Part shown: in pieces, positions 42,791-48,978 of the stretch | Numbering within the stretch: the stretch's first letter is position 1 | Layout: every line of letters begins with the position of its first letter | Origin: Sphaerisporangium perillae | GTDB lineage: Bacteria; Actinomycetota; Actinomycetes; Streptosporangiales; Streptosporangiaceae | Direction: 5' to 3' | Assembly (NCBI RefSeq): GCF_023276435.1 | Contig: NZ_JALLPO010000015.1 | Location: 62,001 to 126,000, forward strand | Length of the DNA stretch: 64,000 nucleotides | Notes under the pieces: model-generated | What the model saw: only the letters and a program-made list of their open reading frames with translations | Database searches by the model: none | What the model was told of the DNA's origin: nothing | Translations under genes and position numbers: made by a program

Positions 42791-43417
42791 CTAGAGCGGC
42801 GGGGTGAGCTCCTGGAACGAGCTGCAGTTGCCCGGCCAGGCCGGGTTGCCACCAGTGCCGGGCGTGGGGTTGACCGTGCACGTCGTCTGGCGGATCAGAC
42901 CGGTCGAACTGAGCACCGTGACGTGGAGGTTGTTCCCCATCACGGCCAGGCTGACATCGGTCGCGTTCCCCGGATACCCGGGCAACGTGGAGACGTCGTG
43001 CCAGGGTGAGGCGGTCCTCGGGTCCCGGACGAACGTCGGGCCGTTGCCCTGGGCGTAGCCTACGAACTTGTTGTTGCCCTGGAAGGCCGTGTCGATGCCG
43101 GCGCTGCGGCCGGGAGGTCCGGGAGGTCCGGGAGGACACTCCTTGCAACACTTCTTCTTGCTGTCCTCGTCGCAACACTTCCTCTTGCCGTCCTCGTCGT
43201 TACCGACGGGCCTGTTCTTGGCGACGGCGACGAAGCCGGCGGGAGCGACCTGGTGAGCGACCCGGTGCCCCGGGACGCTCCGCACTTCCGTACCGTCCGT
43301 ACCGGCCTGGGCCGTGGCCGGGAGCGACAGCGCGACGACTCCACCGGCGATCGCCGTCGCGAACGCCAGAGTCCACGCGCGCTTGCCTATGAAAGGACCT
43401 GTTTCCCGAGGAATCAC
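42791..43417 (-). CDS. Secreted protein with a cysteine cluster and a short collagen-like GPP run
   Basis: 208 aa from GTG 43417, with GGGGGAAC about 5 nt upstream. The signal peptide is AWTLAFATAIAGGVVALSLP ending TAQA. The mature protein has a charged cysteine cluster (KRKCCDEDSKKKCCKECPPG) running directly into GPPGPPGRSAG, then a C-terminal domain of about 90 residues. That domain (NNKFVGYAQGNGPTFVRDPR, TVLSSTGLIRQTTCTV) looks like a small beta-sandwich or propeller blade. No named family recognised. Isolated gene in the accessory zone. Confidence 0.75.
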   Translation of the reverse strand: MIPRETGPFIGKRAWTLAFATAIAGGVVALSLPATAQAGTDGTEVRSVPGHRVAHQVAPAGFVAVAKNRPVGNDEDGKRKCCDEDSKKKCCKECPPGPPGPPGRSAGIDTAFQGNNKFVGYAQGNGPTFVRDPRTASPWHDVSTLPGYPGNATDVSLAVMGNNLHVTVLSSTGLIRQTTCTVNPTPGTGGNPAWPGNCSSFQELTPPL

Positions 43418-43801
43418 TCGGTTCCCCCATATCGCTTGAATTCCGATGAATCGGACCTTTTCCGTGCCACTGCGGTAGCACTGCGACCAGGGAATACCCA
43501 TTCAGCGAACCAGTGACGCCGCACCGGCGTAGTGATAGAGAAAACAGACGAACACAATAAAGAAAAGAAACCCCGACTCCCAGTCCATGCCATTGCCGAA
43601 TACTCATTAGCCGAAAATCCGTCCACTATCGAGCGTTCACCGGATTTTCCGACATAAGCAGTGCTCAGCCACCCATGTCACCCACCGGGGCACCAGGGGA
43701 ATGCGAAACGCACCACCACCGGGTGCGGTCCGACCACCGCGTGATCGCCTCACCTAAGGAGAAATCGGGTTAACGCCGCGAACCATGACGTGGGCCCGAT
43801 C
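43418..43801. other. AT-richer intergenic region
   Basis: About 380 bp upstream of the collagen-like gene. 43430-43640 is notably AT-rich for this genome and likely holds that gene's promoter. No gene seen; the frames running through here are extensions of the neighbour. Confidence 0.4.
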
Positions 43802-44083
43802 TCAGCCGGGCGCTCCGTTCTCGTAGTGCTCGTGCGCCTGGTGCGCGCTGGTGAACCGCCCGATGAAGTCCGCGGCCGAGTGTTCCGGTCTGCTCGGCCG
43901 GAAGTACCCGTTGTCAACGGCCGAGTCGTAGATCGGAGCGTCGAGAGGGTACTCGGTGAGCAACCCGGTCAGACTTCGGGCACTGATCCACTCCTCGGCC
44001 CGGCTCCGGGAGCTGAAGATCGCCGATGGCCACCGTCCGCCCTCGCCCACGAACGCCCAAACCGTTCGCCGACCGTCTTCCAT
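43802..44083 (-). CDS. DUF7710-type small protein
   Basis: 93 aa from ATG 44083. The sequence RTVWAFVGEGGRWPSAIFSS, RAEEWISARSLTGLLTEYPL, DAPIYDSAVDNGYF matches a short family I recall as DUF7710 (VWVFHGEGGRFPSGVF.., LTGTLTAYPLD). Function unknown; often found in variable regions. AGAGAGG lies 9 nt upstream. Confidence 0.65.
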   Translation of the reverse strand: MEDGRRTVWAFVGEGGRWPSAIFSSRSRAEEWISARSLTGLLTEYPLDAPIYDSAVDNGYFRPSRPEHSAADFIGRFTSAHQAHEHYENGAPG

Positions 44084-44662
44084 CGCCGCGAGCCTCTCTT
44101 GTCTGACTCGCCTCAACGTATCGGGCGTACGATCCCCTGCTCTACCGCGGCCGTGGCCACGGGCCTGGAGGATGACGCAGGAACAGGCGCCCTTGGTAAT
44201 CGATCATTGCGCACAATGATGCATCCTCATTGGCGTTAATCGCAACGTAGATGACCCGGCCGTCGACAGGCTTCATCGCTCCGGCGATGCATCCGTAACA
44301 CATTCGAGCATACGAAGGCAGGGTCGACTCATCGATCGAGAGGGGCGACCAGCCCGCGGCAAGGAAGCCGCGCTGGCGGGCATCGGGACCGCCATCGACG
44401 CGGTGGGGGGCGGCTTCACGATGCGTTACGCGACAGTGGTGGTCACCGCGGCGCGAACCGACGCCGTCTGACCCGCCGAACCCGCTACCAACCAGCGAAA
44501 CGTCAGCCAGCCGACGGTCACCCATTCTTCGGTATCGGTGCGACCGAAAGACCGTTTTCAGCTTGTCCGAGCCTGGCGTAGCCCGTTCCGTTCGACTTTG
44601 GTCGAGCGGAAGCCTACTTAAGTCCGTTGTGGGCGCCGCCGGATCAGGATCACGATGGGCGC
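44084..44662. other. Region of gene debris
   Basis: About 580 bp without an intact gene. It contains a methyltransferase-like tail (listed separately) and a minus-strand frame ending at 44142 (PVDGRVIYVAINANEDASLC) that I cannot assign. It looks like an area of decayed insertions. Confidence 0.4.
44337..44471 (+). pseudogene. C-terminal fragment resembling a SAM-dependent methyltransferase
   Basis: In one frame: RGKEAALAGIGTAIDAVGGG, FTMRYATVVVTAARTDAV and stop at 44471. The GGxFTMxYATVxVTAAR pattern is the usual last strand of some class I methyltransferases. The upstream part of the gene is absent. Confidence 0.4.
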
Positions 44663-45613
44663 ATGGCTTGGCGTCCCGTCCTCGCACTGCTGCTGATGGC
44701 GCCGTACCTGGGGGAGGTGCTGTCGACCGCGACATCCCCGCTCGATCTGCTGCTGCCGTGGAACCTCGCCCTGTTCGTCGCGCTCTACGGCAGCGGCGCG
44801 CTACTGTGCCGCGAGATGGCTCACCGGTGGGGGCTCGTCCTGCCCGGACTGGCTCTGCTCGGCGCGGCGTACGGTGTCTACGAGGAGGCGCTGGTCGACC
44901 GGTTCTGGTTCGACCCCAAATACGCGCACGACACCGGCATCGGCGACTACGCCCAGGTCTGGCACACGAACCTGTTGCTCGCCACGCATCTCACCGCCTT
45001 CCATACCGCGGTGAGCGTGTGCTCGTCGGTCCTCGTCGTCACGTGGCTGTTCCCGGGCGACCGCGACCGCGCCTGGGTCCGCCCGCGCGGCCTGGTCGTC
45101 GCCGGGATCGCGATGCTGCTGGTCCTGTTCCTCGTGTACGAGGACCACGTGCGGCCAACGCTCGGCCCGGTGCTCGTGGCGCTCGGGGTCAGCGTCCTGA
45201 TCGTGGTGACCGCGCTGCTCTCCCGGCGCCTGCCGCGCCTGGCCCGCGCTTCCTCGCGTCGCCCTCGACCGCGCTTGCTCGGCGTCGTGGCGTTCGTCTG
45301 TACCGGCACGCACTTCGTGCTCGTCTATGCGGTCCCGTCGACGGGCCTGCCGTGGCCGGCCGGACTCGCCGCCACCCTGACACCGCTCGTGGTCGGCGTC
45401 CTGGCCGCCCGACGCTGGGCCACGACGGGGCCGCTCGGACGCGACGGGCTCTGGGTGGTCACGGGGATCCTCGGTTTCTTCGTCGTGCTCGACGCACTCG
45501 TCGGACTCGGCGGCCGCTACGACCTCACCGTCAGCGCCGTGCTCACGGCTCTGGTCCTGGCCTGGCTGCACCGCCGCGTCCCCGCAGCCGCCATACCAAC
45601 GCCACCGCGTTGA
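44663..45613 (+). CDS. Multi-pass membrane protein of unknown function
   Basis: 316 aa from ATG 44663 (GATGGGCGC upstream). About nine or ten hydrophobic segments, beginning WRPVLALLLMAPYLGEVLST. Two conserved-looking polar patches occur in loops: GVYEEALVDRFWFDPKY and WHTNLLLATHLTAFHTAVS, with Glu, Asp and His residues near the membrane that could bind metal or be catalytic. Similar proteins exist in actinomycetes, but I know no function. Confidence 0.7.
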   Translation: MAWRPVLALLLMAPYLGEVLSTATSPLDLLLPWNLALFVALYGSGALLCREMAHRWGLVLPGLALLGAAYGVYEEALVDRFWFDPKYAHDTGIGDYAQVWHTNLLLATHLTAFHTAVSVCSSVLVVTWLFPGDRDRAWVRPRGLVVAGIAMLLVLFLVYEDHVRPTLGPVLVALGVSVLIVVTALLSRRLPRLARASSRRPRPRLLGVVAFVCTGTHFVLVYAVPSTGLPWPAGLAATLTPLVVGVLAARRWATTGPLGRDGLWVVTGILGFFVVLDALVGLGGRYDLTVSAVLTALVLAWLHRRVPAAAIPTPPR

Positions 45614-45743
45614 CCAGTGTGAAACAGGTCAATGCTTCATTCAAGCTGCACTGGATCCGGGGCAGCCCGCGGAGGGCTACCCGGTCGAGCGCGACGACCT
45701 GGCCGATGACCGCCGCGCCGTTGACCTGGCCGGCTGACCCTGC

Positions 45744-46346
45744 TCAGTCCTGCGGCTTGCGCCAGATGATGCTGTAACGCAACAGGAGGTGACGGCGATA
45801 CTGGGAGCCGGGCAGGATCTCGGCGGCCAACGCTCGCATCTGCGGGTACGTCACCGGCGGCGGCCACACCATGGGGGACGGATGCACCCAGTGGCCCTTC
45901 GTGGCGCGATGGAAGGTACCGACGACGACACCGGCCAGGTCGCGCGGCAGGTCGTTGGGCATGGCGCTACGGGCCAAGCCGACGATGGCCAGGACGCCGC
46001 CGGGGCGCAGCAGGTCGCGCATGCGGGCCAACCCAGCGGCGGCGTCCATGTGGTGCAGAGTGGCCACCGACGCGATGACGTCCAACGAGGCGGGCTCGAA
46101 GGGGTGGGTCAGGAAATCGCCGAGGATGTAGTCGACGTCGTCCGGGTACTCGCGGGCTTGGTCGATGCTGGGCGCGTCGAGGTCGATGCCGGTGACGTGC
46201 GGCACGGCCTGCCGCAGTTCACGGGCGAGCATGCCCTCGCCGCAGCCGACATCGAGGGCGCGCTGGGCGCCATCGGGGACCGCGCGCAGGATGCGGGGGT
46301 GGTAATGGATGTTGTGGTTCCACCGCTTGCCGTTCTTCACCGTCAT
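45744..46346 (-). CDS. Class I SAM-dependent methyltransferase
   Basis: 200 aa from ATG 46346 (AGGATGATCAC upstream). Motif I is ALDVGCGEGMLARELR, motif II VTGIDLDAPSIDQAREY, then YILGDFLTHPFE and ASVATLHHMDAAAGL, LLRPGGVLAIVGLAR. UbiE/Methyltransf_11-type fold; the ending HLLLRYSIIWRKP is typical of small-molecule methyltransferases. Substrate unknown. Confidence 0.85.
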   Translation of the reverse strand: MTVKNGKRWNHNIHYHPRILRAVPDGAQRALDVGCGEGMLARELRQAVPHVTGIDLDAPSIDQAREYPDDVDYILGDFLTHPFEPASLDVIASVATLHHMDAAAGLARMRDLLRPGGVLAIVGLARSAMPNDLPRDLAGVVVGTFHRATKGHWVHPSPMVWPPPVTYPQMRALAAEILPGSQYRRHLLLRYSIIWRKPQD

Positions 46347-46454
46347 GTGATCATCCTGCCGGACACAGGTCCTGCTGGTCGGCACCGCTGAGCCTTGCCT
46401 AACAGTCGCCCGGCTCCTCTCATCCCCCCGGGGAAACCGGGGTTGAGGAACAGC

Positions 46455-46565
46455 GGAACAGCCGTTAGCGCTGGGGCATCGACATAGTGCTCGCCGAGGT
46501 CACGGCGCACATGCAGGAGTACGAACCCGGTCCGCACCTGCTCATCATCACCGGTCGGAAGGGGG
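46455..46565 (+). pseudogene. Possible mid-domain fragment of a tyrosine recombinase
   Basis: Frame RWGIDIVLAEVTAHMQEYEP then GPHLLIITGRKG resembles the segment of phage integrases reading VxxLAxHxxxYPPGPxGLxFTxRxG that precedes the catalytic HxxR box. It ends exactly where the rnpB-like repeat starts. Short and without neighbours, so uncertain. Confidence 0.3.
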
Positions 46566-46598
46566 ACAGCGGGCGAGTCGGCCTGCAGGCCGGGTTCT
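46566..46598. other. Left copy of rnpB 3' end (attachment site)
   Basis: 33 bp matching 48578-48610 with one mismatch (46586). The right copy is the 3' end of rnpB with its P1 3' strand; this copy stands alone. Confidence 0.8.
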
Positions 46599-46693
46599 TC
46601 CGGCAGGGGTTGACCGACCTGCTGCTACTCCCCCGATAGGGCCATCTACCAGGCGCAACGCATGTGAACAGTGATGAACAAGGCTCCCGCAGG

Positions 46694-47116
46694 CTACCTG
46701 CCCAGCTCCGCCAGGACGGCGCACGTGGTGGCCCACCGTCGGGGGCCGACCCGCTCCCGCCACTCCCGCTCGAGTTCCTCAATGGCTGCCGCGCTCGCCT
46801 TCTGTAGCTCGATCCCCCGGGGCGTGGGCGTCACGAGGCGTACCCGCCGATCGTGCGGATCGGCCAAGACTCGCACGAAGCCTTCCTGTTCCAGGGTCGC
46901 GACGAACTCACCCATGGCCTGCTTCGTCATCGACGCACGAGTGGCCAGGTCGGTCAGCCGGATTCCATCGGCGGGGATCAGGTTCATGACCCGCAGAAAG
47001 GACGACCGCAGGCCGGGCGCGTGGTCGGCCATCAGTCCCTCCATGACGCGCTTGGCTGCCCGCATCGCCCGATCAAGGAGCGCGAGAATGTGCTCAGGGT
47101 CGTTGACCAATGTCAT
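46694..47116 (-). CDS. MarR-family transcriptional regulator
   Basis: 140 aa. Winged-helix core: RLTDLATRASMTKQAMGEFV (helix-turn-helix) followed by the wing RVLADPHDRRVRLVTPTPRG. Dimerisation helices at both ends. Divergent from a phosphotransferase gene 55 bp away, with an inverted repeat overlapping its own start codon, so it probably represses both genes and is released by a ligand. Confidence 0.9.
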   Translation of the reverse strand: MTLVNDPEHILALLDRAMRAAKRVMEGLMADHAPGLRSSFLRVMNLIPADGIRLTDLATRASMTKQAMGEFVATLEQEGFVRVLADPHDRRVRLVTPTPRGIELQKASAAAIEELEREWRERVGPRRWATTCAVLAELGR

Positions 47117-47155
47117 AAGGTTGCCTTACTATCCCTACTAGTCAGGTAACCTTAT
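47115..47155. promoter_or_regulatory. Inverted-repeat operator between the MarR regulator and phosphotransferase genes
   Basis: ATAAGGTTGCC (47115-47125) and GGTAACCTTAT (47145-47155) are inverted copies matching at 10 of 11 positions, 19 bp apart. The left arm covers the marR start codon and the right arm ends 4 bp before the GGAGGGG ribosome-binding site of the phosphotransferase gene. This fits binding by one or two MarR dimers. Confidence 0.75.
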
Positions 47156-47170
47156 CTTCGGAGGGGCTCC

Positions 47171-48295
47171 ATGTCGACCCATCTGATCGGCTCCGCCTCC
47201 GTGAGCGACGACGAGTTCGCCGACATCGTGAGCAAGGCACTCGGCCGCGCCGTTGCCGTCAAGGATTGGTCGGCCGAGGTTGTGGACTATCCGCTCTTCG
47301 GCTCACCCGCCACGGGCGCGCTCCGGCGGATCCGCGGCGTCACCGATGACGGCGAGCCGTTCCGCCTGTTCCTGAAGGTCATCCACAGCCCCCGGCACTG
47401 GCCTCGCCTGGACCTGGTGCCCGAGCACTCCCGGCAAGACTTCGTCGACGAGTTCCCGTGGCGGATGGAGCTCGCCGCATGGGAGCCCACCTTCGTCGAC
47501 CACCTGCCCACCGGCCTGCGGGTACCCCGCCTCTACCGCCTCGCCGAACTCGGCGACGACCGCGCCGCGCTGTGGATGGAAGACATCCAGCAGAGCGCCG
47601 ATGAGTGGGACGTGCCGCGTTTCGCACGGGCCGCCCGGCTGCTCGGAGGTTTGGCGGCCGGCCGGTCGGATCCCGGTCTGATCGCCGGTGCCGGCAGGCC
47701 ACCCGGGTTCGGGCTGCGCATGTACCGGCACGCCCGGCTGATGGGGGCGCTTGCACAGCTTGAGGATGACGCCCTATGGGCACATCCGGTGGTCGCCGCG
47801 TCCGTTGACGAACACCTCCGAGCGGACCTGCGGACCCTCGCCGGAAGGATCGACCAGATCATGGACCGGCTCGACCAATTGCCCCAGGCGCTGCCGCACG
47901 GTGACGCAAGCCCGCAGAACCTGCTCGTGCCGTCCGACGAACCCGACACCTTTGTCGCCATCGACGTCTCCTTCCAGACGCCGCATGCGATCGGCTTCGA
48001 CCTTGGTCAGCTCCTCGTAGGTCTGGTCCATGCTGGACAGTTCCCGGCTCACCGGCTGTCTGAGCTGCATGAAGTGCTCGCACCGTCCTTCGTGGACGGA
48101 ATGGCCGAGCACGGAAAGCCGTCGGCATCAAACGACGTCGCGTACGGATTTCACGGCAGCCTCGTCGTCCGCTCCGCGTTCACGGCGTTGCCCTGGGAGC
48201 GGCTCGACGGGCCGCCCAGCCCGGAGCTCGCCGCCGAATTCGGTGAACGCGCTCTGCTCACCCGGTTCATCGTCGACTGCGGGCTGGCGCTGTAG
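47171..48295 (+). CDS. Aminoglycoside phosphotransferase-like (APH/choline kinase superfamily) protein
   Basis: 374 aa. The catalytic loop is LPHGDASPQNLLV (HGDxxxxN) and the metal-binding segment FVAIDVSFQTPHAIGFDLGQ replaces the usual IDWE/IDFD with IDVSF. That changes the second metal ligand, so activity or substrate may differ from classical resistance kinases. N-terminal lobe with FRLFLKVIHSP (likely ATP-site Lys). GGAGGGG precedes the ATG. Probably controlled by the divergent MarR protein through the shared operator. Resistance or metabolite phosphorylation are both possible. Confidence 0.8.
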   Translation: MSTHLIGSASVSDDEFADIVSKALGRAVAVKDWSAEVVDYPLFGSPATGALRRIRGVTDDGEPFRLFLKVIHSPRHWPRLDLVPEHSRQDFVDEFPWRMELAAWEPTFVDHLPTGLRVPRLYRLAELGDDRAALWMEDIQQSADEWDVPRFARAARLLGGLAAGRSDPGLIAGAGRPPGFGLRMYRHARLMGALAQLEDDALWAHPVVAASVDEHLRADLRTLAGRIDQIMDRLDQLPQALPHGDASPQNLLVPSDEPDTFVAIDVSFQTPHAIGFDLGQLLVGLVHAGQFPAHRLSELHEVLAPSFVDGMAEHGKPSASNDVAYGFHGSLVVRSAFTALPWERLDGPPSPELAAEFGERALLTRFIVDCGLAL

Positions 48296-48298
48296 ATC

Positions 48299-48380
48299 AC
48301 GGACCACGTACAAGATGGCGTCCACGATGTCGCGGCGTGGGTGCTGGCTTTCTGGCCTGCCACCGGTGTTGGGGGGATGG
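48299..48380 (-). pseudogene. IS5-family transposase N-terminal fragment
   Basis: Reading the minus strand gives PESQHPRRDIVDAILYVVRD, the start of IS5/IS4-type transposases (RRxIVDAILYVVRTGCxWRxL). It is cut off where the phosphotransferase gene ends. Confidence 0.55.
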
Positions 48381-48577
48381 GAGCAGCGGATCCGAAAGTC
48401 ATACAGACTCGACTAGGTCATGCGACTATCGCGGAAACCATGGATACCTACGGGCATCTCTTTCCGAGCGATGAAGACCTAGGCCGAGGAACGATCGAGA
48501 ACATGATCCGTTCCGCAAACGGAACCGAGACGGAACTAGAGATCATCCAACAGACGTTGCGCCTGGTAGAAGGCTAA
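48380..48577 (+). pseudogene. Tyrosine integrase, C-terminal fragment
   Basis: Frame ADPKVIQTRLGHATIAETMD then TYGHLFPSDEDLGRG carries the end of a phage integrase catalytic domain: the LGH box (third catalytic residue) and the tyrosine nucleophile in TYGHL. The first arginine and HxxR box are missing. It ends at 48577, next to the attachment-site copy. Confidence 0.85.
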
Positions 48578-48580
48578 ACA

Positions 48581-48978
48581 GCGGGCGAGTCGGCCTGTAG
48601 GCCGGGTTCTGTCCTTTGCTGTGCAAAGGGGCGACCATCCATCTAGGGCCGCCGTTGCCGGCGGCCTCAAGCGGTCTACCCGCGCGACTCGGGCGGGTCA
48701 CCCTCGAACGCCGCGCGCGGGATCCTCCGGGGAGGATCCCTTCTTGACCTTGCTCCAGGTGGGGTTTACCTAGCCGCCCACGTCACCGTGGGCGCTGGTG
48801 GTCTCTTACACCACCGTTTCACCCTTACCTCCCCCGAAGGGGAGGCGGTCTGTTTTCTGTGGCACTGTCCCGCGGGTCACCCCGGGTCGGCGTTACCGAC
48901 CACCTTGCCCTGTGGAGCCCGGACCTTCCTCGGCGGGGCTGGAGAGCCCCGACGCGGTCGCCCGGCCGACTCGTCCGC
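48581..48978 (-). ncRNA. rnpB: RNase P RNA, bacterial class A
   Basis: About 398 nt. On the minus strand the 5' arm GCGGACGAGTCGGCC (ending at 48978) pairs with the 3' arm GGCCGACTCGCCCGC (48581-48595) to form P1. Conserved P4 strands are present: GAGGAAGGTCCGGGCTCC near the 5' end and ACAGAACCCGGCCTA near the 3' end. It is the catalytic RNA that matures tRNA 5' ends. An integrative element has used its 3' end as attachment site without damaging it. Confidence 0.92.

Follow-up and report, generated by a model that had tools for sequence, protein, structure and literature searches.

Integration into tRNA and tmRNA genes is well known. For AICEs that use a tyrosine integrase, tRNA genes are given as the sites of the vast majority, the pSLS subfamily being excepted, with its site unnamed in section 6 of that review; neither "rnpB" nor "RNase P" occurs in its main text (PMC3218068), and the main text of the Islander paper likewise mentions neither term (PMC4383910). 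The TIGER/Islander resource, which maps islands at any site, distinguishes tRNA/tmRNA, protein-coding and intergenic sites (PMC12424338), and rnpB sites are therefore probably unlabelled there. A search of the open literature by titles and abstract openings, with the TIGER mapping paper (10.1093/nar/gkaa156) outside its coverage, returned no paper in which rnpB is given as an attachment site; in the portions of text covered, rnpB was encountered as a promoter, as a typing or qPCR gene, in gene lists and in references.

The window analyzed here is a stretch of 64,000 nucleotides from the 9.3-Mb draft genome (120 contigs) of Sphaerisporangium perillae. The features of its rnpB region are as follows.

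43502..46467, no strand: variable stretch between island and backbone; the backbone starts with the gene at 42791-43501
46468..46565 (about), + strand: second integrase of the same kind (A), middle fragment, abutting the outer side of the distal core
46566..46598, no strand: distal attachment core, the displaced copy of the rnpB 3' end, with 1 mismatch
46616..46622, - strand: attP arm site GCAGGTC, just inside the distal core, at a position conserved in relatives
46641..46665, no strand: inverted repeat, distal half (25 nt, 88% complementary; 16 nt exact at 46645-46660)
46694..47116, - strand: MarR-family regulator (PF01047, 35.8 bits, cut-off 24.6)
47171..48295, + strand: 374-aa ORF, kinase-like
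48300..48392, - strand: transposase gene fragment, 5' part, 93 bp; a repeat about 80% identical in many relatives
48390..48577, + strand: C-terminal fragment of a tyrosine integrase (kind A), its stop codon adjoining the core
48550..48574, no strand: inverted repeat, gene-side half, within the integrase tail
48578..48610, no strand: gene-side attachment core (rnpB 3' end)
48582..48973, - strand: rnpB, RNase P RNA class A (Rfam RF00010, 305.5 bits, full length)

To judge by its sequence, the rnpB gene is intact and its 3' end is the attachment core. The two 33-bp cores lie 2,012 bp apart in the same orientation. An earlier note on this DNA had described a copy of the rnpB 3' end, with one mismatch, about 2 kb from the gene, and an integrase tail stopping directly at the rnpB end; both descriptions agree with the coordinates (46566-46598 and 48578-48610 for the copies, TAA at 48575-48577 and the core from 48578 for the tail). 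The note had also considered that the copy might be a common dispersed repeat. A genome-wide probe for further copies found just these two, at up to three mismatches to a 30-nt pattern, so that the 33-bp copy is no dispersed repeat. An intact RNA gene at one island end and its displaced 3' fragment at the other are the arrangement of tDNA-type islands, except that their target is a tRNA or tmRNA gene and that of the present island is rnpB; no tRNA or tmRNA gene was found in the window.

Of the integrase, the island retains only a C-terminal fragment, which has full-length counterparts in relatives. Over 43 aa, this tail shares 86% identity with the integrase of a related locus, L034, and it matches HMM positions 336-383 of a profile built from eight rnpB-side integrases. 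With a kind-A integrase as query, the own genome returned the window fragment at 82% identity over 45 aa, and the remaining matches listed were at most 41% identical; thus, no cognate integrase seems at hand. The transposase gene fragment, which is presumably of the IS5 type and whose repeat overlaps a transposase-like frame in L217, probably interrupts the integrase gene, since its end is the start of the integrase fragment. The 374-aa ORF is taken to encode a phosphotransferase/kinase-like protein because of its HGDxxxxN motif; it had no match in Pfam, NCBIfam or PDB sequences. Together with the MarR gene it forms a stretch that recurs, at 87% identity, on contig C21 of genome G064, in which two rnpB-end copies lie in one array on a different contig (C36).

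The second integrase fragment, outside the distal core, had been missed in the earlier note. It is 64% identical to the L034 integrase over 28 aa and 79% identical at the DNA level to genome G025 over about 67 bp, and its position beyond the distal copy points to an earlier insertion in tandem. Overlapping its outer limit, about 35 bp (46440-46475) recur at 91-95% identity in G100, G009 and G120. A 17-nt inverted repeat, 88% complementary, links 46413-46429 with 48371-48387, one arm lying inside the transposase fragment; its arms may be old insertion-sequence ends. Further out, four ORFs tested from the variable stretch had no match in the compared loci of relatives, and the gene at 42791-43501 and the genes next to it lie behind rnpB in relatives as well.

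Among the window proteins scanned there was no transfer, replication or capsid gene. Of the set that marks AICEs (Rep, FtsK-like Tra, Int), the window segment has an Int fragment only, and structural or packaging genes, as expected of a prophage, were absent from the scanned proteins. As a complete integrase is lacking as well, mobility cannot be claimed, and the window's own element looks dead. The earlier proposal of an integrative island at the rnpB 3' end is supported, with the reservation that the island in the window is a truncated remnant and no intact element.

The limits of the core were derived from 33 gene/distal pairs of 26 genomes. The two copies are highly identical between about -4 and +25 around CCGGCCTACAGGCCGACTCG, and their identity falls off on both sides. 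The attP arm motif GCAGGT is found within 75 bp inside 23 of the 33 distal copies, mainly at -28 (13) and -59 (9); 10 distal copies, however, are without it. None of 26 gene copies has the motif, and of 6,600 random positions 317 do. The two cores are unequal in 13 pairs. The departure from the clade consensus is confined to the distal copy in 10 of these, which counts in favour of insertion by an integrase; one pair departing in the gene copy only and two departing in both count against it.

The window very probably contains a decayed integrative element, of the phage or AICE type, that was inserted into the 3' end of rnpB by tyrosine-integrase recombination. The element would have brought in, within its attP, a copy of the final ~25-30 nt of rnpB. 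Recombination, with strand exchange within the core, would have split off the host 3' end, which became the distal copy, and would have restored rnpB intact. Later, a transposase-gene fragment would have ended up within the integrase gene, and the interior would have been lost or replaced, with both att ends, the MarR and kinase-like pair and the integrase tail remaining. The second integrase fragment would stem from an older insertion. Support for insertion comes from the presence of only two copies in the genome and from the coherent ends, that is, the arm site and the 25-nt inverted repeat.

Other origins of the 33-bp copy have to be weighed against this. Its short inverted repeat CGGCCT..AGGCCG would be compatible with a terminator; yet the 33-bp repeat did not occur in any of 100 shuffled sequences and is present twice in the whole genome, by which a terminator or a chance repeat is refuted and its probability brought close to nil. 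Local duplication of the rnpB end through slippage or unequal exchange, in which an integrase would have no part, does exist: in G432 (L207) a longer 3' piece of rnpB has a second copy at a distance of 1.1 kb, the profile detected no integrase within the 14 kb examined, and this second match is no attachment site. For the window such an event is highly improbable, because the copy stops near the att-core limits of the 33 pairs, comes with an arm at the conserved position and with the paired inverted repeat, and is, like the gene copy, adjoined by an integrase fragment.

It is also conceivable, though rather unlikely, that the MarR and kinase-like genes are cargo moved by an insertion sequence into a pre-existing integrase beside rnpB, the distal copy then belonging to the older element only. 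The location of the 87% identical stretch in G064 on a contig other than that of rnpB, the transposase fragment at the right edge and the flanking integrase fragments, which are of one kind and in order, all fit such a course of events. By coordinates, however, these fragments omit about 43 residues that simple insertion would keep, and the intervening stretch begins with the rnpB core and the attP arm, neither of which would have come with an insertion sequence.

The preferred reading, insertion at the rnpB end by an integrase, can be examined in relatives. Among ten other genomes of the same genus, a second copy near rnpB is present in four (G001, G005, G006 and G009), five (G002, G003, G007, G008 and G010) show none over 10.5-12.5 kb downstream of rnpB, and G004 has one core match genome-wide; in G008, an integrase remnant lies beside rnpB despite the lack of a second copy in the examined downstream stretch. 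A left copy in relatives devoid of the island had been named in the earlier note as speaking against its reading; loci lacking the island have now been compared, and none of the five showed such a copy in the 10.5-12.5 kb covered. Relatives with an unoccupied site and no second copy within that distance are in line with tDNA-type islands.

On a broader scale, the core patterns matched 40 of 60 genomes and at least 226 of 297 genomes of the family, the own genome being included in both counts. From these sets, 76 family rnpB loci were compared: 19 from the 60-genome set, picked to include second copies near rnpB and with the own locus among them (sample A), 17 from the family set picked for nearby second copies (sample B), and 40 from the family set without a nearby second copy among the matches listed (sample C), three of which extend just 0.6-6.3 kb downstream. 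A second copy with up to three mismatches, or an integrase ending no more than 150 bp from rnpB, was found in 9 of 19 loci of sample A, in 17 of 17 of sample B, by choice, and in 8 of 40 of sample C. Against the preferred reading stand the other 32 loci of sample C, with neither second copy nor integrase end within 150 bp, and the fact that two of the three second copies in this sample have 3 mismatches and are more than 10 kb distant.

The search of relatives for rnpB 3'-end repeats followed by tyrosine integrases, as suggested in the earlier note, was rewarding. All 47 integrase stretches detected by the profile downstream of rnpB in the 76 loci face rnpB, and 31 of 38 C-terminal stretches end 64-141 bp from a core, the other seven, which count against the association, being more than 1 kb from any core. 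Integrases of 385-408 aa with PF00589 end beside rnpB in L034, L036, L045 and L069, and in L066 a 441-aa frame at this place matches integrase PHROGs. Several family loci are tandem. In G025, the gene copy is accompanied by further core copies at distances of 17.0 and 35.5 kb; a kind A integrase adjoins rnpB and a kind B integrase the first distal copy, and the outer island encodes a RepSA (pSAM2-type) initiator and an FtsK/SpoIIIE protein, with an integrase stretch beside its core. The island of L045 includes a phage head protein. In an integrase tree of 44 rows, the rnpB-associated rows need 4 changes, which is compatible with one origin; SH-aLRT support is 100 for kind A and 99 for kinds B with C1, and L045 and the L135 fragment stand apart. 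Several kinds of integrase appear to use the rnpB site in the family.

In G420, the second match is not an attachment site: two contigs (L208 and L209) terminate, and overlap each other, at the 3' end of rnpB, and perhaps the population varies in the element at this site. The idea that foreign 3' ends disturb helix P1 and thereby leave an island footprint was rejected, as there is no tie to island evidence. A C/A mismatch at one position of P1, present in 33 of 76 family loci, occurs in 16 of 34 loci with island evidence and in 17 of 42 without (Fisher p 0.64); the mismatch also turned up in a class-wide sample of 29 loci, two of them from the family: of the 28 that were measured, 8 have it, including one of the two family members.

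Beyond the family, the genus of G057, in which the core was matched in at least 213 of 247 genomes, is probably Streptomyces, since its rnpB end has the GGCGTACAG variant of the Streptomyces globisporus rnpB record. Nine same-strand core pairs were selected in this genus. In G837, G890 and G815, with the cores 75-102 kb apart, rnpB is at one end and an integrase with an arm at the distal core. G870 has an integrase and an arm at one copy, with the rnpB motif in neither examined copy; G907 has the arm and no integrase match, and G879 has neither an integrase nor a clear arm at the examined copies. The second matches of G747, G849 and G775 look unrelated to attachment. In G052, from another family of the same class, copies lie 14.6 and 15.8 kb downstream of rnpB, and a 430-residue integrase frame between rnpB and the first copy faces the latter. 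Similar small two-gene units follow both rnpB and the distal copy in this genome (L250); by their look only, they are toxin-antitoxin-like, as though such a unit stood at the start of every tandem element.

A scan of genome contigs yielded, among the best 80 of 533 loci, four with rnpB nearby as judged by motifs, namely, three from family genomes already counted and one from an Ilumatobacteraceae MAG (G324), in which rnpB, an integrase remnant and, 3.4 kb away, a 51-bp copy at 92% identity are found. The same MAG gives two full-length rnpB matches, of 235 and 201 bits, reflecting either contamination or two genes. Attachment at the rnpB end would also occur in probable Streptomyces, in one other family of the class and in the Ilumatobacteraceae MAG.

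Phages carry the core as well. The IMG/VR contig UViG_3300044667_000048 (G323; 35,115 bp) possesses a kind-A integrase, arms and the core, in addition to terminase, portal, head protein and head protease, and, apart from a 23-bit match at the core, rnpB is absent from it. As this core lies inside the contig, with arm repeats adjoining, it would be a free attP, although the record may be a fragment. An rnpB-like core with up to three mismatches is present in 18 of the best 80 of 156 viral loci matched by integrase alignment (one being the G323 contig itself), the reversed-sequence control giving 1. It is situated 17-111 bp beyond the integrase frame in 17 of the 18 and overlaps the frame in L256, which seems to run into rnpB at the contig end; L307 also contains the rnpB 5' motif, and L272 and L273 look like near-copies. 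Among the viral contigs, nothing matched a pattern built on a different rnpB end. A phage record collection gave no convincing core match, its two best being faecal contigs with a whole rnpB. Three further IMG/VR contigs (L154, L155 and L156) combine the rnpB 3' end with the rnpB 5' motif and show no integrase motif in the stretch examined.

The full-length integrases beside rnpB in relatives and the phage contig with its free attP argue for rnpB as an attachment site. Going by the sequences of relatives, including the phage, mobile elements repeatedly dock at the rnpB end and leave the gene intact; phages and islands elsewhere in Actinomycetota would do so too. If this is true, rnpB joins tRNA and tmRNA genes in the rule for island targets, the variable region behind rnpB in these genomes is explained, and island finders are told where to look. 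It would also provide a set of integrases targeting an essential gene of every strain, for the placement of DNA in actinomycetes that are hard to engineer, and it raises the question of how cells tolerate repeated rewriting of the 3' end of a ribozyme.

Compared with known systems, the rnpB islands share with the tRNA/tmRNA islands of the Islander class, as described in the main text of that paper, the tyrosine integrase, the split RNA gene restored by an element-borne copy, the displaced fragment at the far end and the tandem arrays; Islander seeks tRNA and tmRNA genes, whereas the target here is rnpB (PMC4383910). The likeness to AICEs, as portrayed in the main text of the review, lies in the outer island of G025 with its RepSA (pSAM2-type) and FtsK/SpoIIIE proteins (PMC3218068). 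G323 resembles temperate actinophages with a tyrosine integrase in its terminase, portal, head protein, protease, integrase and attP, but differs from them in that its attP core is the rnpB 3' end. In our verdict, rnpB would represent a new site class for a known mechanism.
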